Assembly (NCBI GenBank): GCA_902362805.1
Contig: CABIXY010000001.1
Span: 424,053-488,052, forward strand
Source of the DNA: Eubacteriaceae bacterium
GTDB lineage: Bacteria > Bacillota > Clostridia > Peptostreptococcales > Anaerovoracaceae
Direction of reading: 5' to 3'
DNA: 64,000 bases
The notes beneath the pieces are model-generated. The model was not told where the DNA came from, did no database searches, and saw nothing but the letters and a program-made list of their open reading frames with translations. This document shows positions 3,204 to 23,061 of this stretch, one piece after another (the first letter of the stretch is position 1; every line of letters starts with the position of its first letter). A program made the translations under genes and the position numbers.

Positions 3204-3245
3204 AAAATACAAAAAATGAAAGGTTGATTATATGAGGAGGTTCAA

Positions 3246-3428
3246 ATGATGAATAATGTTGTTGTGATTCAGGCTGATAACCGAGGATTTGATAAGACGA
3301 AAAAACAGTTAAGTGCATTGACTGCCGAAGCAAGGAACTTGCAGAAGGCAGGTGGCTGTTTCAGCTTGCCAGCCAGGGCAGATGCGAATATAATTGAGGT
3401 AGAGCATAATTTGGAGGTAAGGCGATGA
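3246..3428 (+). pseudogene. Truncated tape-measure 5' end between PH-SHOCT copies
   Basis: A 60-codon ORF with a strong GAGGAGG ribosome site. Its first ~36 residues (MNNVVVIQADNRGFDKTKKQ) parallel the N-terminus of the full tape measure (MNNIAIIEVDKQGLSAAKRK), including the following Lys/Leu-rich helix. The remaining ~23 residues are read from sequence that also precedes PH-SHOCT copy A (2319-2365). I read it as the left-behind start of a tape-measure gene that was split when the PH-SHOCT unit was duplicated. It may still be translated. Confidence 0.6.
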
Positions 3429-4210: not shown

Positions 4211-4247
4211 AATGTTTATTTTTACAATGTAAATACGATGAAATATT

Positions 4248-4275
4248 AAGCGCTTTCAAATCAGAGGCGCTTTTA
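4248..4275 (+). terminator. Weak hairpin between PH-SHOCT copy B and tape measure
   Basis: AAGCGC and GCGCTT can pair across a 13-nt loop, followed by a T/A-rich run. It occupies the same place as the stronger terminator after copy A. Probably leaky, since the tape measure must be expressed. Confidence 0.4.
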
Positions 4276-4305
4276 TAATACAGAAAAATGAAAGGAGGAT
4301 GTCTT

Positions 4306-7281
4306 ATGAATAATATTGCAATTATCGAGGTTGACAAGCAAGGTCTTAGTGCTGCGAAAAGGAAAATTAGTGATTTAACATCAGAAGTAAAAAAATTACG
4401 AAGCGAAACAAAAAAACTGCAAAAGACAAAAGTTGTGGCTCAAGTATTTCTAAATGAAGAGAAATTCAACAAATCATTTGCTAAAACTGAAAAGTTGCTA
4501 AAACAGTTGACCACATCAAAATTTGAAGTGACAGTTTTAACAAATGATGTAAAGTTGCAAAAAGTACATTCTACAATTAAAGAATTAAGTGGAAAAAAAC
4601 ATATGGTTCATATTGGAATTGATACAAGTGGAGCTTTTTCCGAACTTAACCATTTGAAGGGGCAATTGCAATCGTTAATATTAAAAAAATGGAACTTGAC
4701 TATATTTAATTCTGGTACAAATAAAAAGAACATTCCATGGGGATATGCAGTCGGAACAGCAAATGCAGTTCAACCACGTATAAAACAAGAGCCCCCCGTT
4801 GATACATTGTCTGATGTTATAGGATCCACTGCTGATATTTTGACATTTTATACAGCAGCAGATCTCATATTTGACAAGATTACTGGAAAATCCAAGAAAA
4901 ATGCTAGAAATGTTCACCTTATGAACAAGCTGCTAACAAAAGTAGGCTCGAGCATAACTAAAAGCGGTAAATTTGGTCTTGCAGCCGGATCGATAGGCTT
5001 AAAAGCGCTTAGTGCAGGAACGGTTGCTGGTGGACTTGCAACGGCTGCAGGAACTATTGATGGAGGCTATCATTTGTATAAAGGAATTACTGCAAATAAC
5101 GACTATGACAGAAGTTATGAAACTGCTAAGGGAAGTACTATTTTAGGAAGTACCATAACAGGTGTTGCAGCTGGTTCCATCTTCGGTATTCCAGGGATTT
5201 TAGTTGGCGGCGGCATTGGTTATATCGCAGGTAAAGCAGCCAGCAGCCCCATCGCCAACGCATTCACTGGGGGAAAGGTAGGTGCAATGAAAGATGCCGC
5301 AGTATCACCAAATGCGGCAAAGCGGCTGGAGGAGTTGCGCGAGAAACAAGCTGAACTGGCAAAGTCTACACTAGATGAAAAGTTTGGTTCCATTACCTTA
5401 TCTGCTGAACAGGTGGCGAAGGCAACCGAGAATTTGTTCAATCCGACGCAAACTGCCAGAATCTATAATGCAGAAGTGGCAGCATCGCAGCTAAATGAAG
5501 CTTTTGGTGCTTTGCAGCAAAGCAATAGCAATTTAAGAAAAGATATTTGGATTGCATCAACAGAAGGTCAGCTTAGCTCACAGAAAATCACTGATTTAAA
5601 AACGTCTGCGAGCACATTTGGAACAGATGCCCGAACGACATTAAAAGAAAAGCAATATGCTGACAAAGAAGCGGTTTTAGCTGTAATGGGAAATGCTGAT
5701 GAGAGCGAAGGCGTTCTAAAGTCAATAGATAACCGTTACAAGAGTCAACAGACAAAACTTAACAAAATGGAGACAAAACTAAATACCGTAATAAATAATG
5801 CTGCAGCAGACGGAAAAATAAGTGAAAAGGAACAAAGTAAAATTGACGATGTGATGACAGAGATAGACTCTTTGATAAAAAATAATAATGGTGACGAATT
5901 TAAAGCCAGCTTGGAAAAAATGGATTTAGATATAAAAGGAGATATTAATTGGGATTCATTTAGGGCAATTATAGAATCTGGCAAATTGAGTGCTGATCAG
6001 AAAGTGGATAGCCTGGAAACCGCATACAGCAATATTGCATCTTCTGTAACCGACAGCGAGAAAAAAACCTTGCTTTGGGGAGAAAATGATAAAGGTGATA
6101 AGGCGGGGCTTTACTATCAAGAATCTGGTATGTATCTCGATGTGATTAATAGCGCAACGGAAGGTTTTATGGAGCGATTTGCGGGTAATTTCGATTATTT
6201 TTCTGAATCTATTGATAAAATTATGCAAGGCGGTTTAAATGATGATGCGAGAAAGCAAATTAGCAGCTTGTATGAAGATGATGGAGCAAAAAAAGCTTTA
6301 GGAGAGCTTACGGATGGCCTAAGCGGCAGCGCTCAAGAACTTTTACAGATTGCACAGGTGTATGAAGATGCTACTGGTGAGGTGCCTAAAAAAATTCAGG
6401 AGGCTCTGAAACAATTAGATTTCTATAATTATGTAGCGGATGATAAAGCACACGTTTGGCTGAAAGAAAATGGTGGCAAGAATGCAAATAAAGAATTCAA
6501 CTTAGATGACTATATGTACATGGGACAACCCTCTCTGCAGTCAATGCCCCAGACAGTACCTCAAACAATACCGCAGGATGGTTTTGCTTATTCCTCAGGA
6601 TTACCGCAGGCACCGCAGGTCACTTTGGACGGAAAGTCAATCATAGAGGGGCAGTCATCAATTACAGCAGCGGATTTCGGAATACCGCCATTTATCACTA
6701 CGACGGTAGATGTGTACGTAAAAGAGAATAGGATTATCGGTGATCCGCCAAAAGGTGCCGGAGGCGTAGGCAGTACGATTGCTTCCGCAGGATATACACT
6801 TATGGAGGGGGCAAAAAAAGTTCTTAAGAAATTAAACGGTTTCCGCGGCGGCATCATTGGCGGCAACATCCCTGGTTATGCCGAAGGCGGATATGTCCAA
6901 GGCGGCGCGCAATTGATTACTGTCGCCGAGGAAGGCACGCCAGAGGCGATCATTCCGCTAGGCAAACATCGCAGGAAACGAGCCATAGAATTGTTCGGCC
7001 AGGTAGGAAGCTACTTGCAGGCTCCGGGTTTCGCTCCGAAGGGTTTTGCTGCTGGCGGCATTGTCGGCGGTTCTATTAGCGGCGGTTTTGGCGGCGGTAT
7101 GCCGACTGTCGTAGAAGTCGGCGGCGTGGAGATCAAAGTCGAAGCGAAGGACGGTCAGAATTTGGTGGAAACCATCAGAGAAAACAAAGAAGCAATCAGT
7201 GAGGAAATTGCAGGGGTATTTAATGCGGCCTTTAAGGGTCAGTTTGCAAATACACCGGCGTCAGGAGGTGCCAGCGCATGA
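4306..7281 (+). CDS. Tail tape measure protein
   Basis: 991 residues. Start ATG 4306 is chosen over ATG 4288 because AAAGGAGG lies at 4291-4298 between them. The N-terminus is helical and Lys-rich; residues about 215-310 are Gly/Ala-rich and hydrophobic (membrane-inserting in many tape measures); the middle is coiled-coil-like; the C-terminus has the Gly-rich ending common in this class (PGYAEGGYVQGG, EEGTPEAIIPLGK). It sets tail length and later helps DNA or ions cross the membrane. The first two thirds are visibly AT-richer than the C-terminal third and the neighbouring genes, suggesting a recombination joint at about 6.5-6.8 kb. Confidence 0.85.
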   Translation: MNNIAIIEVDKQGLSAAKRKISDLTSEVKKLRSETKKLQKTKVVAQVFLNEEKFNKSFAKTEKLLKQLTTSKFEVTVLTNDVKLQKVHSTIKELSGKKHMVHIGIDTSGAFSELNHLKGQLQSLILKKWNLTIFNSGTNKKNIPWGYAVGTANAVQPRIKQEPPVDTLSDVIGSTADILTFYTAADLIFDKITGKSKKNARNVHLMNKLLTKVGSSITKSGKFGLAAGSIGLKALSAGTVAGGLATAAGTIDGGYHLYKGITANNDYDRSYETAKGSTILGSTITGVAAGSIFGIPGILVGGGIGYIAGKAASSPIANAFTGGKVGAMKDAAVSPNAAKRLEELREKQAELAKSTLDEKFGSITLSAEQVAKATENLFNPTQTARIYNAEVAASQLNEAFGALQQSNSNLRKDIWIASTEGQLSSQKITDLKTSASTFGTDARTTLKEKQYADKEAVLAVMGNADESEGVLKSIDNRYKSQQTKLNKMETKLNTVINNAAADGKISEKEQSKIDDVMTEIDSLIKNNNGDEFKASLEKMDLDIKGDINWDSFRAIIESGKLSADQKVDSLETAYSNIASSVTDSEKKTLLWGENDKGDKAGLYYQESGMYLDVINSATEGFMERFAGNFDYFSESIDKIMQGGLNDDARKQISSLYEDDGAKKALGELTDGLSGSAQELLQIAQVYEDATGEVPKKIQEALKQLDFYNYVADDKAHVWLKENGGKNANKEFNLDDYMYMGQPSLQSMPQTVPQTIPQDGFAYSSGLPQAPQVTLDGKSIIEGQSSITAADFGIPPFITTTVDVYVKENRIIGDPPKGAGGVGSTIASAGYTLMEGAKKVLKKLNGFRGGIIGGNIPGYAEGGYVQGGAQLITVAEEGTPEAIIPLGKHRRKRAIELFGQVGSYLQAPGFAPKGFAAGGIVGGSISGGFGGGMPTVVEVGGVEIKVEAKDGQNLVETIRENKEAISEEIAGVFNAAFKGQFANTPASGGASA

Positions 7282-7955
7282 GAATCATAGCAAAGGAATT
7301 TAATAACCCATCCAATAGGCTGGAATTTTCCTGGCTGCCGACAGAAATCAAGGACAACGGGGGCAACGTCATGTTTGCCAGCTACAACCTATTGGACCGC
7401 GGGGAATTTGTCAGACCCTCTGGCAACGACTTGCGTAAGATTTCCTGGGAAGGTCGATTCCCAGGCGAGGCCAGGAGAGAAGAACCCTATCTGGCCGGTG
7501 ATTGGGAAGTGCCCGAAGACTGCGATGATCTGTTGCGGCAGTGGGCGAGCAAACGCAAAAAAGTAAAACTGACCATTGAAAATACCAACATTAACGAGTT
7601 TACATGCTATATCAACAACTACTCGTCCACCTATACAGGCGGATTTGGCGATATAGAGTATTCTATTGAGTGGATCGCCTATAAATCCTTGAGCGTCAAT
7701 GTCACGAAAAGACCTAAAACAGTCAAGAAGCAGACAAAGCGAGCAAAGAAAGACTATAAGACCCATGTCGTCGTAAGTGGAGATAACCTCTGGGATCTTG
7801 CAGTAAAATATCTGGGCAAAGGCAGTCGTTGGCGGGAAATATACGCAAAAAATGATAAAATCATTGAAAAGGTGGCAAGGGCTCATGGCTTCAAATCCTC
7901 TGACAACGGACACTGGATCTGGCCGAAGACGATATTGAAGCTGCCGAAAAAATAA
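7278..7955 (+). CDS. LysM-domain tail protein (XkdP-like)
   Basis: 225 residues. The C-terminal ~55 residues form a LysM-type domain (HVVVSGDNLWDLAVKYLGKG), a peptidoglycan-binding fold that places the tail tip in the cell wall. The N-terminal part is the tail-tube-initiator-like region found in XkdP. It overlaps the tape-measure stop by ATGA (7278-7281), so translation is probably coupled. Position between tape measure and hub matches PBSX. Confidence 0.85.
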   Translation: MRIIAKEFNNPSNRLEFSWLPTEIKDNGGNVMFASYNLLDRGEFVRPSGNDLRKISWEGRFPGEARREEPYLAGDWEVPEDCDDLLRQWASKRKKVKLTIENTNINEFTCYINNYSSTYTGGFGDIEYSIEWIAYKSLSVNVTKRPKTVKKQTKRAKKDYKTHVVVSGDNLWDLAVKYLGKGSRWREIYAKNDKIIEKVARAHGFKSSDNGHWIWPKTILKLPKK

Positions 7956-7968
7956 GGGAGGAAAGGAT

Positions 7969-9258
7969 ATGCTATATTATAGACCGATGTATTCCGTCGT
8001 CGTTATCCCTCCCAAGGGCAAGAAATACGTGGTGAAAGCCATGAGCAGCAGAGGGGAAGCGACCAATCTGGTTACCAGCCTGACGCTGACGGAATCGAAA
8101 GGACAGCTCGCTCAGAGAGCGACAATCAAAATGTTCAATCGCTATATAGACGGACGCGGTTATCCCAGCAATTTATTTCCTGTGAAAAGCCGTGTCTTTA
8201 TTTATGCAAAAGGCGCAGGCGTGGATAAAGGGAAAGAAGTCTTTCGCGGCTATGTCTGGGAGACCAATTACACCCGTTCAGATTCCAGCGAACTGACTTT
8301 GACTTGCTACGATAACCTGATCTACTTCATGAATTCAGAGACGCTGCACTATTTCTCCAAGGGTAAGAAGACGAAGGAAATCGTGTCTACGATTCTGAAG
8401 AAAAGAGGGGTCAAGTTAAAGTATAACTACAGTAACATCACCCATCCGAAACTGCCGTTGTCGGGAACTTTGGCGGACATCCTCACGTCAAAGGTTTTGG
8501 ACGAAGCAAAGAAAAAGATGGGCACGAAGTACGTGATCAAAAGCGTCAAGGACGTGGTTCACATAGACAGGGAGGGCAGCAACCAGACCATTTATCGAAT
8601 TCCGAGGGGCGAAAATGGACTGCTGATTCAATATGCCAGATCAGTCACCATGGACGGCATGGTGACTAACGTGGTCGTAACCGGAAAAACAGATGAAGAC
8701 GGCAAGACAAAAGTTGAAACGCGAGTCCCCCGCAATAAGAAGACCTATGGAACTTTGACCAGAATCATTCATAAAGACGAGGATACCAAACTGTCGGAGA
8801 TTAAGAAAGAGGCTAAATACATACTTGATGAGAACTCTCTGCCTCATAAGGAATACGATATCACCGCCATGGACATTCCGTGGGTCAGAAAAGGTGATAA
8901 AGTTCTAGTACAATTTGACGAGAAAACCTTACACGGCTGCATCGTCAATGAGATTACCCACAACGGTGACAACAACACCATGAATATGAACGTGCGCAGA
9001 CTGAAAAAGCTGAAGAAGGCTTCTGACAAGAAGCTGACCTGTCCATCTAAAACACTTCGCAGCGGCAGTCAGGGCAGCGCTGTCAAGGACTTGCAGAAAT
9101 GCCTGAATCAGGTGATGTCTTCCGGTCTGACTGTCGATGGCATCTTTGGCAGCAATACATACAAGGCTGTAAAGAGTTTTCAGAAGAAATATAAGCTGGT
9201 CGTTGACGGCATATTCGGACCAAAGTCCATTGCAAAGATGAAAAGTGCCTTAAAATAA
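7969..9258 (+). CDS. Tail hub/baseplate protein (XkdQ-like) with C-terminal peptidoglycan-binding domain
   Basis: 429 residues. Residues about 1-350 resemble XkdQ/gp27-like hub proteins, which form the central ring of the baseplate. Residues about 360-429 are a PG_binding_1 domain with the repeated motif LTVDGIFGSNTYKAVKSFQK and VVDGIFGPKSIAKMKSAL. The domain would tether the hub to peptidoglycan. Start ATG 7969 has a GGGAGGAAAGG ribosome site. I infer that this hub has taken up a wall-binding module in addition to the LysM of its neighbour. Confidence 0.82.
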   Translation: MLYYRPMYSVVVIPPKGKKYVVKAMSSRGEATNLVTSLTLTESKGQLAQRATIKMFNRYIDGRGYPSNLFPVKSRVFIYAKGAGVDKGKEVFRGYVWETNYTRSDSSELTLTCYDNLIYFMNSETLHYFSKGKKTKEIVSTILKKRGVKLKYNYSNITHPKLPLSGTLADILTSKVLDEAKKKMGTKYVIKSVKDVVHIDREGSNQTIYRIPRGENGLLIQYARSVTMDGMVTNVVVTGKTDEDGKTKVETRVPRNKKTYGTLTRIIHKDEDTKLSEIKKEAKYILDENSLPHKEYDITAMDIPWVRKGDKVLVQFDEKTLHGCIVNEITHNGDNNTMNMNVRRLKKLKKASDKKLTCPSKTLRSGSQGSAVKDLQKCLNQVMSSGLTVDGIFGSNTYKAVKSFQKKYKLVVDGIFGPKSIAKMKSALK

Positions 9259-9272
9259 AAAGCCATGTGCAT

Positions 9273-9300
9273 CTGACCCCCAAAAGTGTGGTAATATAAG
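9273..9300 (+). promoter_or_regulatory. Possible sigma-A promoter for ywbE
   Basis: CTGACC (9273-9278), 16 nt, then TATAAG (9295-9300), about 37 nt before the ywbE start. Match is moderate; the value is that it stands inside a long co-directional late operon. Confidence 0.4.
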
Positions 9301-9337
9301 TATAGTGAAAAACTATAAAACGAGTGAGTGAGGAAAA

Positions 9338-9538
9338 ATGAGTTTAAACGGACAGAACAGAGCCGACATCAAAATCGGCGCCAAAGTAAAGATCGTCTTG
9401 AAAGCCGACCAGCGCACAGGAAAGCTGACAGAAGGGGTCGTAGGAAAACTGCTGACCAAAAGCAGTTTTCATCCCCATGGCATCAAGGTGATGCTGGAAG
9501 ACGGCCAGGTCGGCCGTGTACAGGAAATTATAGAATAA
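9338..9538 (+). CDS. ywbE: YwbE family protein inserted in the tail operon
   Basis: 66 residues, full length for the YwbE family (DUF2196, about 65 residues). The sequence carries the family core (LKADQRTGKLTEGVV, HPHGIKVMLEDGQVGRVQ). Homologues are ordinary cellular genes of unknown function, with a KOW-like small beta fold. Here it lies between the hub and the baseplate genes, with a possible promoter upstream and a strong terminator directly downstream, i.e. an autonomous cargo (moron) arrangement. Start ATG 9338 has a GAGGAAAA ribosome site. Confidence 0.82.
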   Translation: MSLNGQNRADIKIGAKVKIVLKADQRTGKLTEGVVGKLLTKSSFHPHGIKVMLEDGQVGRVQEIIE

Positions 9539-9550
9539 AAGCAGCAGAGA

Positions 9551-9577
9551 AAACACCTGAATTGCAGGTGTTTTTTC
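9551..9577 (+). terminator. Terminator after ywbE
   Basis: Nine-base arms AAACACCTG / CAGGTGTTT around AATTG, followed by a run of T. A strong Rho-independent signal in the middle of the tail operon. Confidence 0.8.
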
Positions 9578-9604
9578 TTTTGTGGAAAAGGAGGTTCGGC
9601 AGAA

Positions 9605-9949
9605 ATGTCAAGCAACATAGAAAAATTAGGCGAGACCCTGCAGGGTCGCATGCATACGGTGAAAAAAAGCAGCAGCAGCGCTTTGATGGAGCTGGGAACC
9701 ATTTCTTCGTCATTGGCTCTGGAGCCGGATCAGTCGCCAGGGCCAATACCAGAAGGGGAGTATTCCATATGCAGGACTGTATCAAACAAAGTAATGAAAA
9801 AGAAGAAAGTTGTCACTGGCAGCGTGTATATGGAGGACATCCGCTATCAAAATTTGAAAGCGGGCGACAGGGTGCTGATCGTTTGGTGCGGCAGTGAACC
9901 TGTCGTCGTAGATTTAATCGCAGGGGAAGGAGAGGAAGACGATGAGTGA
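9605..9949 (+). CDS. Baseplate-region protein (DUF2577, XkdR-like)
   Basis: 114 residues. It lies where PBSX has xkdR, between hub and DUF2634 gene, and has the short beta-rich C-terminal part (SVYMEDIRYQNLKAGDRVLI) seen in DUF2577 proteins. Start ATG 9605 follows AAAGGAGG. Its last codons overlap the next start (9942). Role in the baseplate is inferred from position. Confidence 0.65.
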   Translation: MSSNIEKLGETLQGRMHTVKKSSSSALMELGTISSSLALEPDQSPGPIPEGEYSICRTVSNKVMKKKKVVTGSVYMEDIRYQNLKAGDRVLIVWCGSEPVVVDLIAGEGEEDDE

Positions 9950-10403
9950 CGAAAATTTGTTTCCTGCTGATATGGAAGAGATGACGATGGAAGAGGAAGA
10001 AATGGAAGAACTGGAGGAACAGGATGATTACATCGGTGCGGCAGCCTTTGACCGCGATTTTGTCAGAGACGGTCAGAACAGCGTTCGAGGGGCCAGCGGC
10101 ATCGACTCCTGGAAACAGTGGTGCATCAACTGCCTCACGACAGAAAGAGAGGCAAGCCCGCTTTACTCTTCCGATTTTGGTATTGCCATCACCGAAATAC
10201 TACAGGCGACGACGAGGGAAGAAGCGGAAAGTCTGTTTAAGGCTGAGGCAAAAGAAGCTCTGGAAGCGGATCCCTACGAGCGTACAGACTATGTGAGCGA
10301 AATCAGTTTTGACTGGGGCACGGACAGCGTCAATGTGTATATAGAGGTCGTTGGCATCGATGGAGCCACGATCGATTTTGAAGTGAATTTAGAAGGCAGG
10401 TGA
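9942..10403 (+). CDS. Baseplate wedge protein (DUF2634, XkdS/gp25-like)
   Basis: 153 residues. After an acidic N-terminus (MEEEEMEELEEQDD) comes the wedge-type domain with SWKQWCINCLTTEREASPLY and a DFEVNLEGR end. DUF2634/gp25-like proteins are conserved parts of contractile tail baseplates. It overlaps its upstream neighbour by 8 bp and ends just before the baseplate J gene, the usual order S-T-U. Confidence 0.8.
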   Translation: MSDENLFPADMEEMTMEEEEMEELEEQDDYIGAAAFDRDFVRDGQNSVRGASGIDSWKQWCINCLTTEREASPLYSSDFGIAITEILQATTREEAESLFKAEAKEALEADPYERTDYVSEISFDWGTDSVNVYIEVVGIDGATIDFEVNLEGR

Positions 10404-10408
10404 TAGAA

Positions 10409-11560
10409 ATGGCTGAAGAATTTAATATTCCGGATTTCTTAGACAGGGATTTTGCGGATATCATGGATGAAATGACGGCCGACATGCCGGAAGATATCGA
10501 TATGAGTGAGGGAAACCATCCTTATAATCTCATAGCGCCGACTGCAAGGCAGGAGGAATACTTTAGCGGCTTTATTTTAGCAGAAGCGCTCAAACGGGTC
10601 TTTCCAAAGTTCTGCGAAGGTTATCCAGAGTACGTGGACTACCATGCAGAGGTCAATGGCCTGCAGCGAAAAGCGGCAACCTTTGCCACGGGGAAGTTGG
10701 CAGTTACGGGTAAACCCGAGACGGTGATACCGGCAGATACAGCTTTTTCCACAGTGAGCACCGGGGACATTCCATCGGTTGGCTTTGTCTCAATAGAAGA
10801 GACAGAAATCGGAGGCAGCGGCAGCGCGGAGGTTTTGATCAGAGCGGCAGAAGCGGGAACGTCTGGCAATGTGGCAGAAAATACGATTATATTACAGGAC
10901 AGCCCGCTGGACGGTCTGGAAAGCTTGACAAATCCCCAGGCGACATCAGGAGGAATCGACGAGGAATCCGATGCCAGCCTCATTGAGAGGATTGCAGAAT
11001 ATGAAGAGATGCAGGGGCTTTCCTTTGTTGGAAATGACACGGACTATAAACGATGGGCAGAAGAGGTGAACGGGACGGGCGTTGCGACCGTAGTGCCGCC
11101 GGCGGAAGACGACGACAGCGGGACCATAACCATCGTCCTGACGGATACTTTGGGTAAGCCGGCGACGGAGGAGCTCTGTCGGCAGGTTTACGACTACATC
11201 GCAAGCCCCAATGACAGAGACAAACGAAAGGCGCCGGTCAATGGAGCGAAGCTCTCCGTGATTCCGCCAGTCGTCGTCAACATTTCGGTAACTGCGGAAA
11301 TCGAACTCACCGAGGAGGCTACTTTGGAGACGGTGAAGACGGAATTCTTGAAAAATGCAGCGGCATATATGGCAGTGGTACCAGAGGATAAAGAAGTAAA
11401 GTACACCAAGATCGGTGCGATTCTCTCTGCAACCAATGGTGTGCAGGATTATACGGCTGCGTCTTTGCAGGTTAACGGCGGAACGGAGAACATTGCCATT
11501 GCGGTCAATGAATTCCCGCAGATTCTTGCGGATAACGTCACGTTTACAGAAAGTGTATAG
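10409..11560 (+). CDS. Baseplate J-like protein (XkdT)
   Basis: 383 residues from ATG 10409; the ribosome site (GGCAGG, 10395-10400) favours this start over GTG 10400. The middle contains the baseplate-J signatures (ATFATGKLAVTG, AGTSGNVAENTI, SDASLIERIAEYEEMQG). These proteins build the baseplate wedge that triggers sheath contraction. Flanked by DUF2634 and DUF2313 genes, as in PBSX. Confidence 0.9.
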   Translation: MAEEFNIPDFLDRDFADIMDEMTADMPEDIDMSEGNHPYNLIAPTARQEEYFSGFILAEALKRVFPKFCEGYPEYVDYHAEVNGLQRKAATFATGKLAVTGKPETVIPADTAFSTVSTGDIPSVGFVSIEETEIGGSGSAEVLIRAAEAGTSGNVAENTIILQDSPLDGLESLTNPQATSGGIDEESDASLIERIAEYEEMQGLSFVGNDTDYKRWAEEVNGTGVATVVPPAEDDDSGTITIVLTDTLGKPATEELCRQVYDYIASPNDRDKRKAPVNGAKLSVIPPVVVNISVTAEIELTEEATLETVKTEFLKNAAAYMAVVPEDKEVKYTKIGAILSATNGVQDYTAASLQVNGGTENIAIAVNEFPQILADNVTFTESV

Positions 11561-11568
11561 GTGGTCAG

Positions 11569-12150
11569 ATGGGATACTATACAAGTGAGTTAATAGAAGA
11601 GATCCTCAGAAGTGAAAAGGCAAAGGAAATTCTCGGCTGGTTTCCGCCAGTTTACAGCGACGCTTATGTTTTCCTGTGGCTGCTGCAGGAGGTTGGTGCC
11701 AGTATAGAGCGCATGGAGCAGTGGGCGGAGGAATTTGCCGACCAGGTTATGCCGCAAAGGGCCACCTGGAGCCTGCCCTATTGGGAGGGACGTTATGGAA
11801 TCATTCCCAATGAAAATCTTTCCAATAAACAGCGGCGGAACCAGATCGTCAATAAGCGCAGAACCCGTGCGCCGATGCCGCCTAAGAAGATTGAGGACAT
11901 TATTACAAACATGACAGGAATTGAAACAAAGATAGAAGAGAACACTGGCAAAAATCACTTTACTGTGGTTTGCAGCGGCTACATTCCGCCAGGTCTGATG
12001 AAGATGGTGAGGAAAGAACTGAACAAATTGAAGCCGTCCCATTTGATCTACAGGATTATCTCGTCGATTTTTTATGATACGGAAATCACGAAATACCTGG
12101 CCAGTGCAGCTAGTGTTCTGAAAACTTATACAGTGAAGGAGGTGGTTTAA
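11569..12150 (+). CDS. YmfQ/XkdU-like tail protein (DUF2313)
   Basis: 193 residues, with the DUF2313 pattern near the N-terminus (VGASIERMEQWAEEFADQV) followed by the W-rich segment ATWSLPYWEGRYGI. The family lies immediately after baseplate J and connects the baseplate with the fibres. Eight bases separate it from the J gene; its stop overlaps the next start by one base. Confidence 0.82.
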   Translation: MGYYTSELIEEILRSEKAKEILGWFPPVYSDAYVFLWLLQEVGASIERMEQWAEEFADQVMPQRATWSLPYWEGRYGIIPNENLSNKQRRNQIVNKRRTRAPMPPKKIEDIITNMTGIETKIEENTGKNHFTVVCSGYIPPGLMKMVRKELNKLKPSHLIYRIISSIFYDTEITKYLASAASVLKTYTVKEVV

Positions 12151-12881
12151 TGGCTACATGGGTAAATTTCTGCAGGACCGAGCAGGGAAAGGTTTTGGAT
12201 GCCAAGCTGGTCAACGGCAGCATTCCGCTTAGGTTCACAAAGGCCATGTCGGGCAGTGAGAAAATCAACCCTGTGCTTTTGCCGACTTTGACGGAATTGC
12301 CGGGACCAAAACAGACGCTGACGTTGTCGGATAAGCTGTACACCGATGATCCGACAGAGGTGATTCTGCCGGTCATGCTGCAGAACAAAGGGCTGGCGGA
12401 GTCTTACAAAATGTACATCCTGGGACTCTATGCGGAGGATCCCGATTTGGGAGAAATCCTCTACATGGTGTGTCAGACGACGACAGAGGAAGGAGAAGAA
12501 ATTCCCAGCGAAACGAATCAGCCAGCTTTTTCCATTCAGTGGAATCACGTCATTAAGACGGCAGATGCGTCAAAAGTCGTGGTGGAGGTACCGGAGGCGG
12601 GATTACTGACAGAACTTATTGCGGATCAGAAGTATGCGCTGAAGGACCATCGCCATGACGTGTACGACATAGAAGGGTTTGAGAATCTAAATATCGATTT
12701 GGGGTATTTTGACGATGAAACTCAGCTGCAGTCACACAATACTTCGGAATATGCGCATCAGAATATGGTCTTGAATGGCAACGAAATTGAGATACTTGCT
12801 TCTGGCGAGACCTCTGATTTACAGACACATATGACAGATCCATTGGCACATTCAAATTTAAAGGTTGATGGCAATGGCTAA
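12150..12881 (+). CDS. Tail fibre/collar-type protein
   Basis: 243 residues. The N-terminal ~160 residues resemble phage tail-collar fibre attachment domains (FTKAMSGSEKI near residue 30). The C-terminal part is a short fibre shaft with the repeat theme found in Gram-positive fibres (LQSHNTSEYAHQNM, LQTHMTDPLAHSNL). It is the first of four fibre genes and probably the one that docks on the XkdU-like protein. Confidence 0.72.
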   Translation: MATWVNFCRTEQGKVLDAKLVNGSIPLRFTKAMSGSEKINPVLLPTLTELPGPKQTLTLSDKLYTDDPTEVILPVMLQNKGLAESYKMYILGLYAEDPDLGEILYMVCQTTTEEGEEIPSETNQPAFSIQWNHVIKTADASKVVVEVPEAGLLTELIADQKYALKDHRHDVYDIEGFENLNIDLGYFDDETQLQSHNTSEYAHQNMVLNGNEIEILASGETSDLQTHMTDPLAHSNLKVDGNG

Positions 12882-12903: not shown

Positions 12904-14031
12904 ATGGCAAAAATTCAAATTAAGCGCGGCCTTCAGAGCAACGTGGAAAAACTGCTGCTCTCCCAGGGAGAACTGGCAGTGGCTCTGGACACCGGCAATC
13001 TTTATGTCGGAACCGAATCGGGTAAAGTTCACCTGAACCCCGACGGCGGGACGGCAGACGAGGCTTCAAAGCTGAAAAATGCGAGGGAGTTCTCGATCTC
13101 AGGTGATGGTAGTGCCCAGCCAGTGACATTTGATGGTACTGGAAACGTGGAACTGATCTTATCCCTGGCAACGATGTCGGGACTGACGGCAGGAACCTAT
13201 ACGAAACTGACCGTGGACGGCAAAGGTCGTGTAACGGGCGCCTCTAACATTGAGATCGCTGATTTACCGTCTATCCCAGTATCTAAAATCACAGGACTTG
13301 GGACGGCTGCAAGTCAGAATATGGGAAAAGCCAGCGGCAACGTCGTCGTCGTGGAATCAAACGGCAAGATTGCAGATTCCCTGATTCCATCCCTGGCAAT
13401 CAGCGAGACCTTTGAAGCGGATTCGGAGGCAGCAATGCTGGCTCTGTCCTGTCAAAAGGGCGATATCTGTATCAGAACTGATGAGAACAAGTCCTACATC
13501 CTGTCGGGTGATGGTGCTTCAGTTCTAGCAAACTGGAAGTGGCTCAGGACGCCGGACTGCAAGGTGCTCAGCGTCAACGGCAAGACTGGGGCGGTGACCC
13601 TTTCGGCAGCCGATGTGGGCGCAGAACCTTTGATCAAAAACGCAGGGGTGAAAGAAGCGCCGGTGGATGCGGATTCTATCGCTGTGGTGGATTCGGCAGC
13701 ATCCAATGCGACAAAACAGCTTACCTTTACAGCTTTGAAGGCGTATCTGAAAACCTACTTTGACGGGCTGTATAACAAGTATGTCCATCCGACCTACACG
13801 CAGAAAGCCAGCGGACTGTACAAAGTCACGGTGGATGGAACCGGCCATGTCAGCGCGGCTGCAGCCGTAGCCAAAGCGGATATCACGGCACTGGGCATTC
13901 CAGCGCAGGATACAGTCTACACCCTGCCCCAAGCAACGGCGGCTACCCTTGGAGGCGTGAAAGTTGGCAGCGGCCTGGTTAGCGAGGCAGGTGTCGTCTC
14001 TGTGGGAGACATCGACGGCGGAACCTTTTAA
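12904..14031 (+). CDS. Tail fibre with IKRG N-terminal module
   Basis: 375 residues. It begins with the module MAKIQIKRG...GELAVALDTGNLYVGTESG, a small phage N-terminal domain also present in the genes at 14041 and 17405. The rest is a low-complexity beta shaft with repeated GxGTAAS and VTVDGTGHVSAAA motifs and no catalytic signature. Probable receptor-binding fibre. Start ATG 12904 has AAGGAGG. Confidence 0.72.
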   Translation: MAKIQIKRGLQSNVEKLLLSQGELAVALDTGNLYVGTESGKVHLNPDGGTADEASKLKNAREFSISGDGSAQPVTFDGTGNVELILSLATMSGLTAGTYTKLTVDGKGRVTGASNIEIADLPSIPVSKITGLGTAASQNMGKASGNVVVVESNGKIADSLIPSLAISETFEADSEAAMLALSCQKGDICIRTDENKSYILSGDGASVLANWKWLRTPDCKVLSVNGKTGAVTLSAADVGAEPLIKNAGVKEAPVDADSIAVVDSAASNATKQLTFTALKAYLKTYFDGLYNKYVHPTYTQKASGLYKVTVDGTGHVSAAAAVAKADITALGIPAQDTVYTLPQATAATLGGVKVGSGLVSEAGVVSVGDIDGGTF

Positions 14032-14040
14032 GGAGGGAAG

Positions 14041-14310
14041 ATGATGGCTAGAAAATTACAAATTAAAAGAGGACAAAAGAAGGATATGCCTCAGCTTGCA
14101 GAGGGTGAATTAGGATTCGCCCTTGATGAAGAGGCAGTATATATAGGCACAGACACGAAGAATGTCCCCATATCTGCACTTGGCGGTGTCGTCGTCAATA
14201 ATAGTGCTCCAGACAATAGAGAGGTTCTCTGGATTGATACAAGTAATGGTGGCGTAGCAAAATATAATAATGGGACAGAATGGGTCTTAGTTCCTTCGGT
14301 TTGGGGGTGA
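14041..14310 (+). CDS. Short protein with IKRG fibre module, directly before the Cys-rich cassette
   Basis: 89 residues. Residues 1-48 are the same IKRG module as in the two long fibres; the rest (VVNNSAPDNREVLWIDTSNG) looks like a short phage structural domain ending at NGTEWVLVPSVWG. It has no shaft. It could be a complete adaptor protein or the remains of a fibre whose shaft was replaced by the Cys-rich cassette. RBS AGGAGGG precedes; ATG 14044 is an alternative start. Confidence 0.65.
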   Translation: MMARKLQIKRGQKKDMPQLAEGELGFALDEEAVYIGTDTKNVPISALGGVVVNNSAPDNREVLWIDTSNGGVAKYNNGTEWVLVPSVWG

Positions 14311-14314
14311 CTAT

Positions 14315-14794
14315 GTGACAGCGGAAGAATTTAAGAAATTAAAAAATAAAATCAAAGAGGAAATGAACCGTAGATGCCTAGCGGGCCTTGATGAGCGCGA
14401 AACCCCGATCGAGTTTGGTTCCTTGAGAAGGTTCGGATCAACGGAATTCGACTTCACGAATGTCCCAGAAAAGGGGAAAAAGATTCTCACAGAGCATGGC
14501 GAGAAAACGGTAAATATCTTGTATGAGATTAAAGACATTTCTGAAGTTAATTATGTAGAGAAAAATAAGAAATTGCCTGAAAAAGGAAAAATAGAATCTT
14601 TGGAAGAATATTTGGCGGCTATTTCATTGGAGTCAATTGAAGGTGAGCGCAGTTCGTGTCGTGGAGCTTGCAGTGGCCTGTGTTTTGGAAGTTGTATCAA
14701 TGGGTGTAACGGTTGTTCAGGTGCATGTAACAGTGGCTGTCAGGGCTGTTCCGCTACATGCGGTACTGGCTGTGCCGGAAGCACGATGGCGTGA
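14315..14794 (+). CDS. Cys-rich putative radical-SAM substrate peptide with long leader
   Basis: 159 residues starting at GTG 14315, five bases after the preceding stop. Residues 1-114 are charged and leader-like (one Cys at about 20). Residues 115-153 hold 11 Cys, every third or fourth residue, with Gly/Ser between (CRGACSGLCFGSCINGC). This leader-plus-core layout is that of ribosomally made, modified peptides, and a radical SAM/SPASM maturase lies 1.2 kb downstream. It resembles the CXXX-repeat peptide class known from families with radical SAM maturases, but I cannot confirm membership. No signal peptide or membrane segment. Confidence 0.65.
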   Translation: MTAEEFKKLKNKIKEEMNRRCLAGLDERETPIEFGSLRRFGSTEFDFTNVPEKGKKILTEHGEKTVNILYEIKDISEVNYVEKNKKLPEKGKIESLEEYLAAISLESIEGERSSCRGACSGLCFGSCINGCNGCSGACNSGCQGCSATCGTGCAGSTMA

Positions 14795-14807
14795 AAGGAG
14801 GAATGAG

Positions 14808-15416
14808 ATGGCTTGTTCAGGATGCAGCGGAACCTGTGTGGTGAAGTGCAATAATAATTGTACGAACGGATGTACATATGGCTGCACCGATAGCTGTGCA
14901 CAAGGATGTGCGAATGGATGTAGAAGTGGCTGCCAAGGCTGTACCGGGTGTGGTACTGGGTGTGGTACTGGATGTACGGGATGTGGAACAGAATGCAGTA
15001 GTGGTTGCTCGACTGCATGTACTGGGTGTGGGAGCGCTTGCAATACTAGCTGCGCTAGCTGTGGAACTCAGTGCAGCTATGGATGTGCTGTGGATTGCAG
15101 TGGATGTACTGGCTGTAGTATTGCTTGTCAAACGGATTGCTCAGGTTGTAGCTCTTTATGTTCGTCAGCATGCGGTGGTTGCACAGGTTGTTCTGGGTGT
15201 GGTGGCGCATGTTCATCAAATTGTAGCAGTTGCAGTGGAACTTGCACGGGATGCCAAGCGTGTAGTGGTTGTTCAGGTTGTAGTGACGGATGTGGAGCTG
15301 GGTGCAATACTGGATGTGCAGGCGCATGTAAAGAATCTTGCTTTGGTGAATGTGTCAGCACATGTTTTCAGACGTGTGCCGGACAATCAACCGTTAAAAT
15401 TTTAATTAATAATTAA
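14808..15416 (+). CDS. 52-cysteine repeat protein, putative radical-SAM substrate
   Basis: 202 residues, 52 of them Cys (26%), spaced CX2C or CX3C along the whole chain with Gly, Ser, Thr and Ala between. There is no leader: Cys starts at residue 3, and only the last ~10 residues (QSTVKILINN) are Cys-free. Start ATG 14808 is preceded by AAAGGAGG (14794-14801); earlier in-frame codons would run over the upstream gene. It is the partner of the 159-residue peptide, shares its repeat style, and lies in the same probable operon as the radical SAM gene. Alternatives: metal-binding protein or disulfide-rich fibre tip. Confidence 0.65.
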   Translation: MACSGCSGTCVVKCNNNCTNGCTYGCTDSCAQGCANGCRSGCQGCTGCGTGCGTGCTGCGTECSSGCSTACTGCGSACNTSCASCGTQCSYGCAVDCSGCTGCSIACQTDCSGCSSLCSSACGGCTGCSGCGGACSSNCSSCSGTCTGCQACSGCSGCSDGCGAGCNTGCAGACKESCFGECVSTCFQTCAGQSTVKILINN

Positions 15417-15428
15417 TGGAGGTTTGAA

Positions 15429-15719
15429 ATGAAAATTATTTTAAAGGATAAAACAGAATTGGAAATAACAATGGCTAGAATCAGCACTAGTGAAAAGGAA
15501 GGTGCTATAAAAATGATTATTTCATTGGATAATGAGCTTGTATCGCAACATACTGTAAGAGACATTCAAAGAATGTTTACTAAGGATAATATCTCTAATA
15601 TAGAGTTGAACTCAGAAAAAGGAAATGAGAATTTAACATTTACCACTCTAATCGATATTATGTATATCCTAAATGACTATGAAAAGAAGTTTGATATTAT
15701 TTTGGAACAGGAGGCTTAA
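15429..15719 (+). CDS. Small uncharacterised protein of the Cys-rich cassette
   Basis: 96 residues, not recognised. It is soluble-looking, with alternating beta and helical segments (MKIILKDKTELEITMARI; LIDIMYILNDYEKKFDIILE), no Cys and no signal peptide. RBS GGAGG before ATG 15429. It is AT-rich like the rest of the cassette and lies 12 bp after the 52-Cys gene and 1 bp before the next gene. A role as peptide-recognition or carrier protein is possible from its size and position only. Confidence 0.6.
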   Translation: MKIILKDKTELEITMARISTSEKEGAIKMIISLDNELVSQHTVRDIQRMFTKDNISNIELNSEKGNENLTFTTLIDIMYILNDYEKKFDIILEQEA

Positions 15720-15720
15720 A

Positions 15721-16044
15721 ATGAGGAGCTTTGAAATCACTATAGAAAAGGATATAGTATCTTATATTGAAAGATGTTATGCAGAATATGAGATGTTAAA
15801 AGATAATATTACATTTTTAATTCAAAACAATGCAGATAATGCTTCAATTATTAATAGTACAACGTTTCACATGTATGAGGAAAAAGAACTTCACGCTAAA
15901 ATGGCTTATGATAATGCGCGAAATGAACTTACAGAACGCTATATGCCAAAAGAGTTAACTGATCATAAAGTTGAGTGGGAACTTGATTTTAGGACGTGTA
16001 AAATGCATATCAGACAGCTGTGCGATTGTGAGGTTGCAATATGA
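15721..16044 (+). CDS. Small uncharacterised protein coupled to the radical SAM enzyme
   Basis: 107 residues from ATG 15721; CAGGAGG just upstream decides this start over an in-frame ATG at 15673. Largely helical and charged, with a final motif FRTCKMHIRQLCDC. Its stop overlaps the start of the radical SAM gene as ATGA (16041-16044), which implies translational coupling and equimolar synthesis. Its size and place fit the small accessory proteins that go with CXXX-repeat peptide maturases, but this is an inference from context. Confidence 0.6.
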   Translation: MRSFEITIEKDIVSYIERCYAEYEMLKDNITFLIQNNADNASIINSTTFHMYEEKELHAKMAYDNARNELTERYMPKELTDHKVEWELDFRTCKMHIRQLCDCEVAI

Positions 16045-17378
16045 AATTGATGCCAAAAGTAGAGGAGTATTCAGATTGGCTTGCCAGGATGTACCCAGAA
16101 CTTGCAACGGCACAAAGAGATAACGATAAGGCTTTTCTTGCTAAATCCGTCACCTTTCAGGTGACGGATGATTGCAACCTGGCCTGCTCCTATTGCTATC
16201 AGACACATAAAGGCAAGCGAAAAATGAGCATAGAGACTGCAAAGAAATTTATAGACCTGTTGCTGTCTGGGGATAAAGGGATGAAATCATATATCAACGC
16301 TGATGAAACACCAGGAATTGTTCTCGATTTCATAGGGGGAGAACCGCTTTTAGAAACCACTCTGATTGACCAGATTATAGATTATTTCAGAAGCGAAGCA
16401 ATCAGGCTGAGTCATACATGGGCGGAAAAGTTCAGAGCCAGCATATGCTCTAATGGCGTTTTATATTTTGATAAAGAGGTGCAGCGCGTTTTAAACAAAC
16501 ATAAGAATCATTTATCGTTTTCAATCACACTTGATGGAAACAAGGAACTACACGATATGTGCAGACGTTTTCCAGACGGCAGACCAAGCTACGATCTGGC
16601 AATCGCGGCTATCAATGACTGGACCTCAAAAGGGTTTTACATGGGCAGCAAGATTACGGTAGCGCCTGCCAATGTTGGATTTGTCTTTGACGCTAGCAAA
16701 CATATGATTGATTTGGGATATAGAGACATCAATATCAATTGTGTTTATGAAGAAGGCTGGGAACTGGAGCATGCGGTGACCCTGTATCAGCAATTGAAAC
16801 AATTTGCAGATTATATCTTGGAATCGAATATAGAAGAACTTTATTATGCATTCTTTAAAGAGGAAATGTACCACCCAAAGGCGAAAGATGACCTGCAGAA
16901 TTGGTGTGGAGGCAATGGCTTGATGCTGGCATGTGACCCGGATGGAATTTTGTATCCGTGCCTGAGGTATATGGAAAGCAGTTTGGGAGATGAACAGGAG
17001 CCGTATATCATAGGCGATGTCGATAATGGGCTTGCGCAAAATAACTGTTACAAGGATAGAGTGCACTGCCTGGGTTGCATTGACAGACGAACGCAATCCA
17101 CCGACGAATGTTTTAACTGCCCGATTGCAGAAGGATGTTCGTGGTGTACGGCGTACAATTATCAAGTCTTTGGAACGCCAGACAAACGAGCTACCTATAT
17201 CTGTGATATGCATAAGGCTGTCTCACTTGCCAACGTGTACTTTTGGAACAAATACTACCAGAAACAGGGTGAGGACAAACGCTTTCAAATGCACTGTCCA
17301 AAAGAATGGGCGCTGCCAATCATTGGTGAAGAAGAATATGCAAAGTTAAAGAGGCTTTCTGAAGGAAAAAGAACTTAG
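16041..17378 (+). CDS. Radical SAM/SPASM peptide maturase
   Basis: 445 residues. The radical SAM cluster motif CNLACSYC gives C45, C49 and C52 for the [4Fe-4S]-SAM centre, followed by the GGEP motif (FIGGEPLLE) at about 97. The C-terminal third has many Cys in the order of a SPASM domain (WCGGNGLMLACDPDGILYPC ... CLGC ... CFNCPIAEGCSWC), expected to hold two auxiliary clusters. Such enzymes make thioether or C-C crosslinks in ribosomal peptides. The adjacent Cys-rich proteins are the obvious substrates. A radical SAM maturase between tail-fibre genes is unusual. Family assignment is firm; chemistry is unknown. Confidence 0.88.
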   Translation: MKLMPKVEEYSDWLARMYPELATAQRDNDKAFLAKSVTFQVTDDCNLACSYCYQTHKGKRKMSIETAKKFIDLLLSGDKGMKSYINADETPGIVLDFIGGEPLLETTLIDQIIDYFRSEAIRLSHTWAEKFRASICSNGVLYFDKEVQRVLNKHKNHLSFSITLDGNKELHDMCRRFPDGRPSYDLAIAAINDWTSKGFYMGSKITVAPANVGFVFDASKHMIDLGYRDININCVYEEGWELEHAVTLYQQLKQFADYILESNIEELYYAFFKEEMYHPKAKDDLQNWCGGNGLMLACDPDGILYPCLRYMESSLGDEQEPYIIGDVDNGLAQNNCYKDRVHCLGCIDRRTQSTDECFNCPIAEGCSWCTAYNYQVFGTPDKRATYICDMHKAVSLANVYFWNKYYQKQGEDKRFQMHCPKEWALPIIGEEEYAKLKRLSEGKRT

Positions 17379-17404: not shown

Positions 17405-18298
17405 ATGACAATACAAATTAAACGTGGTAAAAAAGAAAATATGCCAACTCTCAAAGAAGGAGAGTTGGCACTTGCCACAGATGAAAAGAAACTATATATA
17501 GGAACGGGGACAGAAAACATACCGGGGTTAATGACAATCGACACTGAGATGTCAGATAGCTCAAGAAATGCAGTGCAAAATAAAGCGGCAAAAAAATATG
17601 TGGATAGTCACATTGATGATACAGCAGTTCATATTACGACAGAAGAACGAAATATGTGGAATGATAAAAGTGATTTCGGCGGGTCATACGATGACTTGAC
17701 TGAAAAACCAACAATTCCTCCTTCATACACACATCCTGTAAATCATCCGGCTACTATGATTACGCAGGATGCTACACATAGATTTGTTACCGATACAGAG
17801 AAGAATACATGGAACGGGCAAGTCAACAAAACTGATTTTGAGACTTTCCAAATAAATATAGGAACGTTGTATGATGATCACATTAATGAGCATACTACGC
17901 ATGTTAATGATGAAGTTAAACACGTAACAGCTGCTGATAGGGATGCTTGGAATAACAAAGTTGACTCGGTAAACGGAGAAGTTACAGGGAACTTTAGCAT
18001 AAGTGGAAGTATTGTTTTTAATGATAACTCTGGAGGATCAATTACATCACTTCAGAGCGGTATAAGAATAGAAACAGAAATGTATAATGGCAGCATAGTC
18101 GTTGCAAATGGTAGCGGGGCAGCACGTATCACAAATGTTGAAACTCCAGTAAGTGATTCTGACGCAGCCACAAAAAAATATGTGGATGATCACAGCGTGG
18201 ACCCAGCTACTGTTCCTAAATTCACCTCAGGCACGATAGACCTGACACCCGGTACATCACCTTTAGCAAATGGCACAATCTACTTCATGTATGAGTAA
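17405..18298 (+). CDS. Tail fibre with IKRG N-terminal module, second
   Basis: 297 residues. Residues 1-45 are the IKRG module (MTIQIKRGKKENMPTLKEGE). A collagen-like or beta shaft follows with the widespread fibre motif HPATMITQDATHRFVTDTEK and two ADRDAWNNK/EEKNTWNG-like repeats. The C-terminus (ATVPKFTSGTIDLTPGTS) is a short knob. It follows the radical SAM gene by 26 bp with an AAAGAAGG ribosome site, so the cassette lies between two genes of one fibre family. Confidence 0.72.
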   Translation: MTIQIKRGKKENMPTLKEGELALATDEKKLYIGTGTENIPGLMTIDTEMSDSSRNAVQNKAAKKYVDSHIDDTAVHITTEERNMWNDKSDFGGSYDDLTEKPTIPPSYTHPVNHPATMITQDATHRFVTDTEKNTWNGQVNKTDFETFQINIGTLYDDHINEHTTHVNDEVKHVTAADRDAWNNKVDSVNGEVTGNFSISGSIVFNDNSGGSITSLQSGIRIETEMYNGSIVVANGSGAARITNVETPVSDSDAATKKYVDDHSVDPATVPKFTSGTIDLTPGTSPLANGTIYFMYE

Positions 18299-22108: not shown

Positions 22109-22354
22109 ATGAGAAACAGAATTAAAAATCCATACTTTTGGATTGGCATCATCGGTGTCGTTTTGACGGCAATGGGAGTCAATGCAGAGACTTTTACCAC
22201 CTGGCAGGCAGTAGCAGACGCACTGACTGAGCTGATCAAGAACCCTTACCTGCTGGGTTCCGTGGCAATCGCGGTGCTTGGGGTCTTTGTGGACCCTTCC
22301 AGCAGCGGACTGAAAGATGTGAAAAATAGGGAGGACGGTGACGGCTCATGTTAA
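22109..22354 (+). CDS. Phage holin, phiLC3 type
   Basis: 81 residues. Two membrane helices (FWIGIIGVVLTAMGV; YLLGSVAIAVLGVFVDP) joined by a helical linker with TWQAVADALTEL, and the DPSSSGLKD ending diagnostic of phiLC3 family holins. It would make membrane lesions that let the amidase out. It overlaps the amidase start by 7 bp. Confidence 0.88.
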   Translation: MRNRIKNPYFWIGIIGVVLTAMGVNAETFTTWQAVADALTELIKNPYLLGSVAIAVLGVFVDPSSSGLKDVKNREDGDGSC

Positions 22355-23061
22355 AGGTCACCGAGATGCTGACGAAGTACAACCACGACAAAACGTCCGG
22401 CCGTAAGATCAAATATATCGTGATTCACTGGGTCGGCGCAGCGTCTACAGCTGTCAACAACGGCACCTATTTTCAGGGCGGGGACAAAGGTGCCTCCGCC
22501 CATTATTTTGTCAACGACACCCACATCGTCAAATCAGTGAGAGAAAGAGATATCGCCTGGGCGGTGGGCAGCCACGGTCTTCTCGACCAGGGCAGCCCCT
22601 ATGCAAAATATGGCGGCATCCTCTTTGGCAAGTGCACCAATCAAAACAGCATCAGCATTGAAATGTGCTGCAAGAAAAACGCCAAAGGAAAGCTGTATAT
22701 CACAGAAAAGACCATTAAAAACACGGCTGATTTAGTACAGGCGATTCAGAAGCGACTGAGCATTGACGATAATCATGTCATCAGACACTTTGACGTCAAC
22801 GGCAAACTCTGTCCTTATCCGTACATCGAAGCATCAAAGTGGAAGGTGCTCCACGCAAAGCTGACGGGGCAGCATCAGAAGATCAAGGCAAAAGGAAACT
22901 TGATTGTGAGGAAGTCTTCTCTGCTGACATCAAAGCGCATCGGACTTCTCACAAAGGGGAAATCCTATGAGATTGTCAAGACCAATAAGAAGAAGAGCCG
23001 CGGACAGCTGGCTGACGGGGGCTGGATTACGATTACAGAGAAGTATGCGGAGAAATTATAG
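22348..23061 (+). CDS. N-acetylmuramoyl-L-alanine amidase endolysin with SH3-like domain
   Basis: 237 residues. Residues about 20-155 form an Amidase_2 zinc domain (KYIVIHWVGAAS, SAHYFVNDTH, and RHFDVNGKLCPYPY supply the metal ligands). Residues about 170-237 are an SH3b-type wall-binding domain (KGNLIVRKSSLLTSKRIGLL). It cleaves the stem peptide from muramic acid at the end of the lytic cycle. It is the last phage gene; a terminator follows and the next gene is convergent. Confidence 0.9.
   Translation: MLKVTEMLTKYNHDKTSGRKIKYIVIHWVGAASTAVNNGTYFQGGDKGASAHYFVNDTHIVKSVRERDIAWAVGSHGLLDQGSPYAKYGGILFGKCTNQNSISIEMCCKKNAKGKLYITEKTIKNTADLVQAIQKRLSIDDNHVIRHFDVNGKLCPYPYIEASKWKVLHAKLTGQHQKIKAKGNLIVRKSSLLTSKRIGLLTKGKSYEIVKTNKKKSRGQLADGGWITITEKYAEKL

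Follow-up and report, generated by a model that had tools for sequence, protein, structure and literature searches.

Introduction

Peptide maturation by radical SAM enzymes has mostly been studied as a source of small peptides. The described system closest to the locus reported here is the CXXX-repeat system (families TIGR04114, TIGR04115, TIGR04116, TIGR04117 and TIGR04119), represented in our collection by locus L006 and the Bacteroidales loci. Our locus is a cassette of six genes at positions 14041-17378 of a 64,000-nt stretch of DNA, here called the window, from Eubacteriaceae bacterium (assembly GCA_902362805.1, contig CABIXY010000001.1, positions 424,053-488,052 of the forward strand); it follows a contractile tail operon and encodes a short fibre docking protein, two Cys-rich proteins (P1 and P2), two small proteins (S1 and S2) and a radical SAM/SPASM maturase. 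It shares with the CXXX-repeat system the maturase family, a protein (S2) probably related to TIGR04116 and a substrate with a Cx2-3C array, and differs from it in that a domain of P1, termed NT, replaces the Tat-like signal, in that a TIGR04119-like second maturase is absent, and in that tail genes are nearby.

The PapB-type ranthipeptide (NF047865) and SCIFF (TIGR03974; structure 5wgg) maturases, whose substrates are short peptides, are the next-best families and offer the closest structure, although the window enzyme falls far under both cutoffs. Among phage protein clusters, PHROG 1802 and PHROG 6085 cover the window maturase and P1/P2, and they have been annotated singly, unlinked to tails or to each other. 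Collagen-like phage fibres are also length-variable, low-complexity repeats located among tail genes, and collagen-like families occur among the cassette neighbours; their likeness to the Cys arrays is one of analogy only. The maturase family, the CXXX system and these PHROGs have all been described before; for the use of CXXX chemistry on tail proteins, no description was found in the open-access literature, a scope outside which most subscription papers and all preprints fall.

Results and Discussion

A CXXX-repeat maturase cassette beside tail genes

We read the cassette, with a probability of roughly 0.6, as the phage branch of the CXXX-repeat radical SAM system, in which the substrate is a crosslinked, length-variable protein of the tail stalk or tip and not an exported one. 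The maturase scored 514.8 bits against TIGR04115 ('radical SAM peptide maturase, CXXX-repeat target family'; cutoff 350), which makes it a member, and has a CX3CX2C motif at residues 45-52; NF047865 (170 bits, cutoff 340) and TIGR03974 (121 bits, cutoff 425) came next, the nearest solved structure by profile was 5wgg (143 bits), and PHROG 1802 (radical SAM) was matched at 2e-67. Among the relatives, L003 (399.3) and L004 (360.6) scored above the TIGR04115 cutoff and L005 (300.6) below it. An open reading frame (ORF) check of the window confirmed that all six cassette genes are real and on the + strand, and the order P1-P2-S1-S2-maturase is repeated in L001, L002 and L110; with this conserved order and the TIGR04115 score, the cassette is well beyond chance. 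The first-pass annotation, which had placed it between two fibre genes of one family, was correct in this regard, as both flanking genes carry Mtd_N. Its suggestion that the maturase and the small proteins be searched against protein families led to TIGR04115 for the maturase; S2 was not called by NCBIfam.

To examine recurrence, the maturase was used to scan viral contigs, which yielded at least 166 relatives (best 80 used), and genomes, which yielded at least 505 (best 80 loci used). Eighty-four fetched loci, comprising 75 from viral contigs, phage records or the window and nine from genomes, couple such a maturase with a Cys array fused to NT, and 66 of them are distinct once near-identical maturases are removed. 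A scan of viral contigs with NT only returned 25 loci; the array was joined to NT in all 25 and a maturase was present in 23, the other two (L098 and L100) lying close to contig ends, with available DNA that stops 955 and 69 bases past the array. Among the 66 distinct loci, the array gene precedes the maturase in 45 and follows it in 18, its place being unclear in three owing to ORF calling; it is on the maturase strand in 65, L038 being the exception. Among 50,697 phage records, a single one (MT835573) contained NT with the L049 query, and none did with the NT of L042. In four picked gut phage records with other radical SAM matches (L191-L194), no array of this type was seen; L191 has two Cys-containing ORFs that are not arrays.

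The genomic context was then compared by means of 16 tail, fibre and lysis probes, nine of the NT loci having supplied probes. A tail or lysis probe matched in 48 of the 66 distinct NT loci, and in 39 of 57 when the nine probe-source loci were left out, as opposed to none of 70 distinct cellular loci (0/59 of the Tat type and 0/11 others). By these counts and by the window operon itself, the cassette is encoded in a tail module, which is the recurrence that the first-pass annotation had proposed to look for, and which supports the tail half of its hypothesis. We also surveyed 128 genes beside the cassette in 34 picked loci. Among the 25 PHROG families listed, out of 325, the top count (9) belonged to a tail-fibre PHROG, and among the 25 Pfam families listed, out of 40, the highest counts were four each for collagen and DUF5048, and three each for tail-collar fibre, glycosyl hydrolase 25, Mu gp48 and DUF2612. 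Seven of ten picked upstream neighbours matched a PHROG named as tail. In individual loci, a tail-collar fibre gene (PHROG tail fibre, 3e-57) precedes the array gene in L116 (Anaerobacterium chartisolvens), and a fibre gene lies three ORFs upstream in L110 (a Eubacterium metagenome-assembled genome); the preceding gene is only weakly tail-fibre-like in L136 (Faecalibacterium sp. I4-1-79; best E 0.0015), and the neighbours in L111 (Neglectibacter timonensis) were judged by eye, this locus entering the tail and lysis tally only where a probe matched it. An apparent fibre-array fusion in L116 was discarded as an artefact of TAG read as Q, the two genes being separate.

It is to be noted that TAG or TGA is read through in the maturase frame of several phages (L004/L076, L080, L003/L048, L026, L058, L059, L065, L071 and others), and thus recoded phages are well represented. 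In L003, at 12011-15455 (TAG read as Q), another Cys-containing protein and two more radical SAM genes, neither of them TIGR04115, adjoin the first cassette.

Cysteine arrays and the NT domain

The first-pass annotation had described two Cys-rich repeat proteins. This holds for P2, which is an array almost from end to end, with 52 Cys in 202 aa and every spacing Cx2C or Cx3C; P1 is Cys-rich in its last 45 residues only, which hold 11 Cys, as opposed to one in the first 114. An alignment of 53 relatives of P1 revealed that the first part is a single conserved domain of ~105 residues (NT), followed by the array. Neither P1 nor P2 matched any NCBIfam family at E up to 1, such that neither is recognised as one of the substrate families TIGR04114 and TIGR04117, and both matched PHROG 6085 (unknown function), at 6e-4 and 3e-3, respectively. 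The proposed resemblance to CXXX-repeat peptides was upheld by the maturase (TIGR04115) and, through the phage S2 profile described below, by S2 (TIGR04116), and not by the NCBIfam search of P1 and P2.

NT was predicted to be helical by AlphaFold2, with low confidence around residues 21-40. The P1 array had a pLDDT of <50 from residue 125 on, and therefore nothing was read from its structure. No convincing solved relative of NT was found by sequence (best E 0.67) or by fold; in the viral model library it matched one nameless protein (E 2e-5). When the NT part of L049 was searched against 5.8 billion proteins, 68 of 69 candidates matched, compared to 3 of 134 in an earlier search with P1. An array follows residue 95 in 69 of 71 NT proteins, the other two (114 and 126 aa) ending at the first cysteines. 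The possibility that NT is a generic tail anchor is not supported, since it was seen only with Cys arrays (25/25 loci; 69/71 proteins). A precomputed Pfam label, PF27846.1, is attached to 50 of 68 NT proteins; a Pfam scan of two of them (P0008 and P0042) gave no such match.

The arrays are Cys/Gly/Ser/Thr repeats of variable length. Between relatives, the number of residues after NT can differ, with 327 in L009 and 273 in L010 and with 69 in L008 and 248 in L013, or be constant, at 45, in the window, L001 and L110; in L115 there are as many as 145 Cys in 650 aa. By analogy, such variation suggests a stalk-like role. NT is placed after the array in five loci (L045, L056, L057, L063 and L064). 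In L073, an F5/8C-type domain that matches a tail PHROG (4e-12) is joined to the array in a single protein, a fusion that is suggestive as a single case. In L083 (4405-5520), a Cys array is followed by a Hint-type autoprocessing domain in one protein. The four closest cassettes gave no reliable estimate of selection, since 27 of the 30 gene pairs were saturated at synonymous sites. The remaining three yielded ratios of nonsynonymous to synonymous substitution rates (dN/dS) of 0.22, 0.09 and 0.24, at dS values (2.4 to 4.9) beyond the range in which such ratios can be relied on.

These features bear on two other explanations. In one, which was the second half of the hypothesis in the first-pass annotation, the product is a bacteriocin or signalling peptide of the RiPP (ribosomally synthesized and post-translationally modified peptide) type that is produced from the late operon of the prophage and released by host lysis, NT being a cleavable leader. 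It agrees with an enzyme family that acts on Cys-rich peptides, with the exclusive pairing of NT with arrays and with the lysis genes downstream in the window. Nonetheless, the 25 Pfam families listed, out of 40, for the 128 flanking genes include none of transporters, leader peptidases or immunity proteins, the arrays are long, as in L115, and NT is C-terminal to the array in five loci; we consider this explanation improbable. In the other, the array is a metal-binding or redox protein of the virion or the infected cell, or is coejected with the DNA, and the radical enzyme makes some other change. Dense Cx2C and Cx3C spacing could indeed bind metals, the array has no confident predicted fold, and its modification is itself deduced from the company it keeps. 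This too is rather unlikely, considering that a dedicated maturase of a peptide-modifying family and a TIGR04116-like partner go with the arrays, and that the position is beside fibre genes.

Cellular relatives and the accessory proteins

The genome scan provided the cellular counterparts. In 60 loci, including L006 and mostly from Bacteroidales, a Cys protein bears a Tat-like RR motif; NT was found in nine of the 80 genome loci, which are Bacillota or Mycoplasmatota by their titles and tree labels. L006 had been filed as phage, an assignment that was dropped, as its Tat genes and families read as those of a cellular Bacteroidetes system. A TIGR04119-like second maturase was present in all 60 Tat-type loci (the probe's own locus included) and in none of the 84 NT loci; elsewhere, it was matched in 3 of 11 other genome loci and in 1 of 32 viral loci without NT. 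Clostridial cellular relatives L124, L132, L163 and L173 encode short Cys peptides of 65-88 aa, with no NT and no recognised Tat-like signal, which are a third type of substrate.

The arrays of the two sides were similar in type. Cx3C and Cx2C account for 73% and 25% of the spacings in phage arrays, and for 88% and 7% in cellular ones. Most arrays have the start motif C-x3-C-x-G-x-C (64 of the 67 from phages and 78 of the 88 from cellular loci), and the narrower C-x-G-L-C is in 46 of 67 versus 11 of 88. Since Gly is the commonest residue at the motif position anyway, our claim is limited to a shared type of array and does not extend to a shared recognition motif.

In a quick maturase tree, for which the Tat set was thinned, 26 cellular rows formed one set (SH-aLRT 98), and a set of 84 rows (support 81) contained nearly all phage rows. 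Outside both were L079 and the long-branched L081, L083, L084 and L085, and two genome rows, L113 (cut at the contig end) and L117 (no NT found), fell in the phage set. In this tree, phage and cellular rows lie mostly on different branches.

This comparison also addresses whether a cellular CXXX cassette was inserted into this prophage by chance. Cellular versions do exist, and S1 and S2 are low in GC content. The first-pass annotation had called the whole cassette AT-rich, which is marked in S1 (0.285) and S2 (0.318) and does not extend to P2 (0.488) or the maturase (0.428), the upstream tail genes having a value of 0.465 and the downstream region (17405-22100) 0.386. Against a chance insertion, the cassette and its position are common to dozens of diverse phages, no cellular locus of the Tat type has NT, and most phage rows group on a branch of their own; with relatives beside tail genes in so many phages, such an event is very improbable.

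Of the two small proteins, S1 has so far been characteristic of the phage type, its profile matching 20 of the 84 NT loci and no locus without NT (72 from genomes and 32 viral). For S2, the profile was seeded with phage members only, an earlier seed with one cellular member having been discarded as circular for the TIGR04116 question. With this phage-only profile, the top matches in a set of 3207 cellular ORFs were TIGR04116-type proteins (E down to 1e-13), and the S2-type member of L006 scored 104.6 bits against TIGR04116. An S2-type protein lies immediately upstream of the maturase in 67 of 107 viral-labelled loci. The S2 model (pLDDT 96) is a helical hairpin with a beta hairpin; no solved fold matched it with an E of 0.001 or lower, and PqqD was absent from the best 50 of its 377 matches. 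S2 is probably not a classical RiPP recognition element, i.e., a PqqD-like winged helix, as the predicted model is unlike one.

A distant version in jumbo phages

Weak matches of the window enzyme (about 22-25% identity) included radical SAM genes of jumbo phages. In SPN3US (L190), two ORFs lie in tandem, the first (3094-3483) of 130 aa with 21 Cys and the second (3497-3898) of 134 aa with 20 Cys; a 'virion structural protein' gene is on one side of them and two radical SAM genes are on the other, and the giant gene adjoining the pair is 5184 bases long. A similar pair (127-142 aa, 20-23 Cys) was found in all six jumbo phages examined, from five genera (L190 and L195-L199). Between L190 and L198, differences at the three codon positions numbered 14, 8 and 68 in one Cys frame and 14, 10 and 73 in the other; since the substitutions are mainly at third positions, these ORFs are real genes. 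In five of the six records neither Cys frame carries an annotated gene, the DNA being left blank or assigned to another frame; the exception is Wellington, in whose record the second gene appears, from a later start. DNA similar to the SPN3US pair occurs in 61 phage records and to the Phobos pair in 28, the two sets overlapping.

As in the window, there are two Cys-array genes by a virion structural gene and radical SAM genes. The differences are a Cys-free start of ~48 residues unlike NT, the absence of a recognised S2, and the larger SPN3US enzyme, whose best family is TIGR04115 and which at 125.6 bits (cutoff 350) is not a member. In the SPN3US virion study, gp168-170 are named as tail candidates (PMC5694885). 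Taking the two forms together, there is an even chance that radical-SAM-crosslinked Cys arrays are a general building material of phage tails, i.e., virion proteins with a dedicated phage maturase, in phages of Firmicutes hosts and, in a distant form, in jumbo phages of Enterobacterales including SPN3US.

Proposed mechanism and its weighing

In the mechanism that we favor, P1 (NT and array) and P2 (array) would be made together with the late tail genes, and S2 and the radical SAM/SPASM enzyme would process the array in the reducing cytoplasm, most likely installing many short-range thioether links that join Cys to nearby residues along the array. The floppy Cys/Gly/Ser/Thr repeat would thereby become a rigid, length-variable stalk or tip element, which NT would dock on the tail or fibre, in place of the cellular export signal, and which would presumably be part of the virion. 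NT is read as the phage counterpart of that signal, and as a docking domain, because cellular enzymes of the same family use substrates without it; it may instead be a leader. Since the same gene set is found beside tail genes in many phages, some phage tails may have chemically hardened parts.

Several observations weigh against a crosslinked tail protein. The array is not predicted by AlphaFold2. Unlike PapB substrates, our arrays have no acidic residue that is common at a fixed position, so that the links may be of another type. P2 is without NT, and NT was never found apart from arrays, which fits a leader or recognition domain as well. By profile, 32 of 107 viral-labelled maturase loci are without NT, an array being present in 16 of these and not found in the available DNA of the other 16; 18 of the 66 distinct NT loci had no tail probe match, and three of the ten picked upstream neighbours had no PHROG named as tail. 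Lastly, those passages of the SPN3US virion study that put forward gp168-170 as tail candidates make no mention of the Cys proteins (PMC5694885).

In these phages, maturases of this family seem to have a part in virus assembly, acting on substrates far longer than usual. If true, this would be a covalent hardening chemistry for phage tails, would assign a function to two PHROG families, and would show that Cys-array genes have been overlooked or misread even in jumbo phages that are well studied. The question is testable in the genetically tractable SPN3US and in prophages of Anaerobacterium chartisolvens DSM 27016, Neglectibacter timonensis SN17 and Faecalibacterium sp. I4-1-79.

Layout of the window

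The features are collected in Table 1. From 14031 onward, the intergenic gaps are 9, 4, 13, 12 and 1 bp, followed by the 4-bp overlap of S2 and the maturase and then 26 bp. The 89-aa Mtd_N protein is tied to the cassette by its adjacency alone.

Table 1 Features of the cassette and its surroundings in the window
Feature	Position	Strand	Evidence
Contractile tail operon	5..12881	+	Pfam; PHROGs for 12150-12881 fibre
Flanking fibre gene with Mtd_N	12904..14031	+	PF18454 36 bits; tail and virion PHROGs
Short Mtd_N-type fibre docking protein, 89 aa	14041..14310	+	Pfam PF18454 26.7 bits, cutoff 26.3
P1: NT domain (~residues 1-114) and 45-residue Cys array (11 Cys), GTG start	14315..14794	+	NT profile E 6e-30
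P2: Cys array without NT, 52 Cys in 202 aa	14808..15416	+	Counterparts in L001, L002, L110
S1: small accessory protein, so far in phage-type loci only	15429..15719	+	Profile search
S2: phage counterpart of TIGR04116 (CXXX repeat peptide modification system protein)	15721..16044	+	Phage-only profile
Radical SAM/SPASM maturase, CXXX-repeat target family	16041..17378	+	TIGR04115 514.8 bits, cutoff 350
Flanking fibre gene with Mtd_N	17405..18298	+	PF18454 40.1 bits; tail PHROGs
Holin and N-acetylmuramoyl-L-alanine amidase	22109..23061	+	Pfam PF04531 and PF01510

The window starts within the tail sheath gene (Pfam PF04984, 5-991), after which the operon encodes a tail assembly chaperone, a 997-aa ORF of tape-measure size, a LysM protein, a YqbQ-like protein, a contractile sheath initiator, baseplate J, a Mu gp48-type protein and a fibre. 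As head genes would fall outside the window, a phage and a tailocin are not distinguishable here; the tail itself is contractile. Between the gene at 18313-20133 and the holin, the region at 20090-22108 has many stop codons in its frame and fibre-like stretches spread over different frames, and it looks like a decayed fibre or tail gene.

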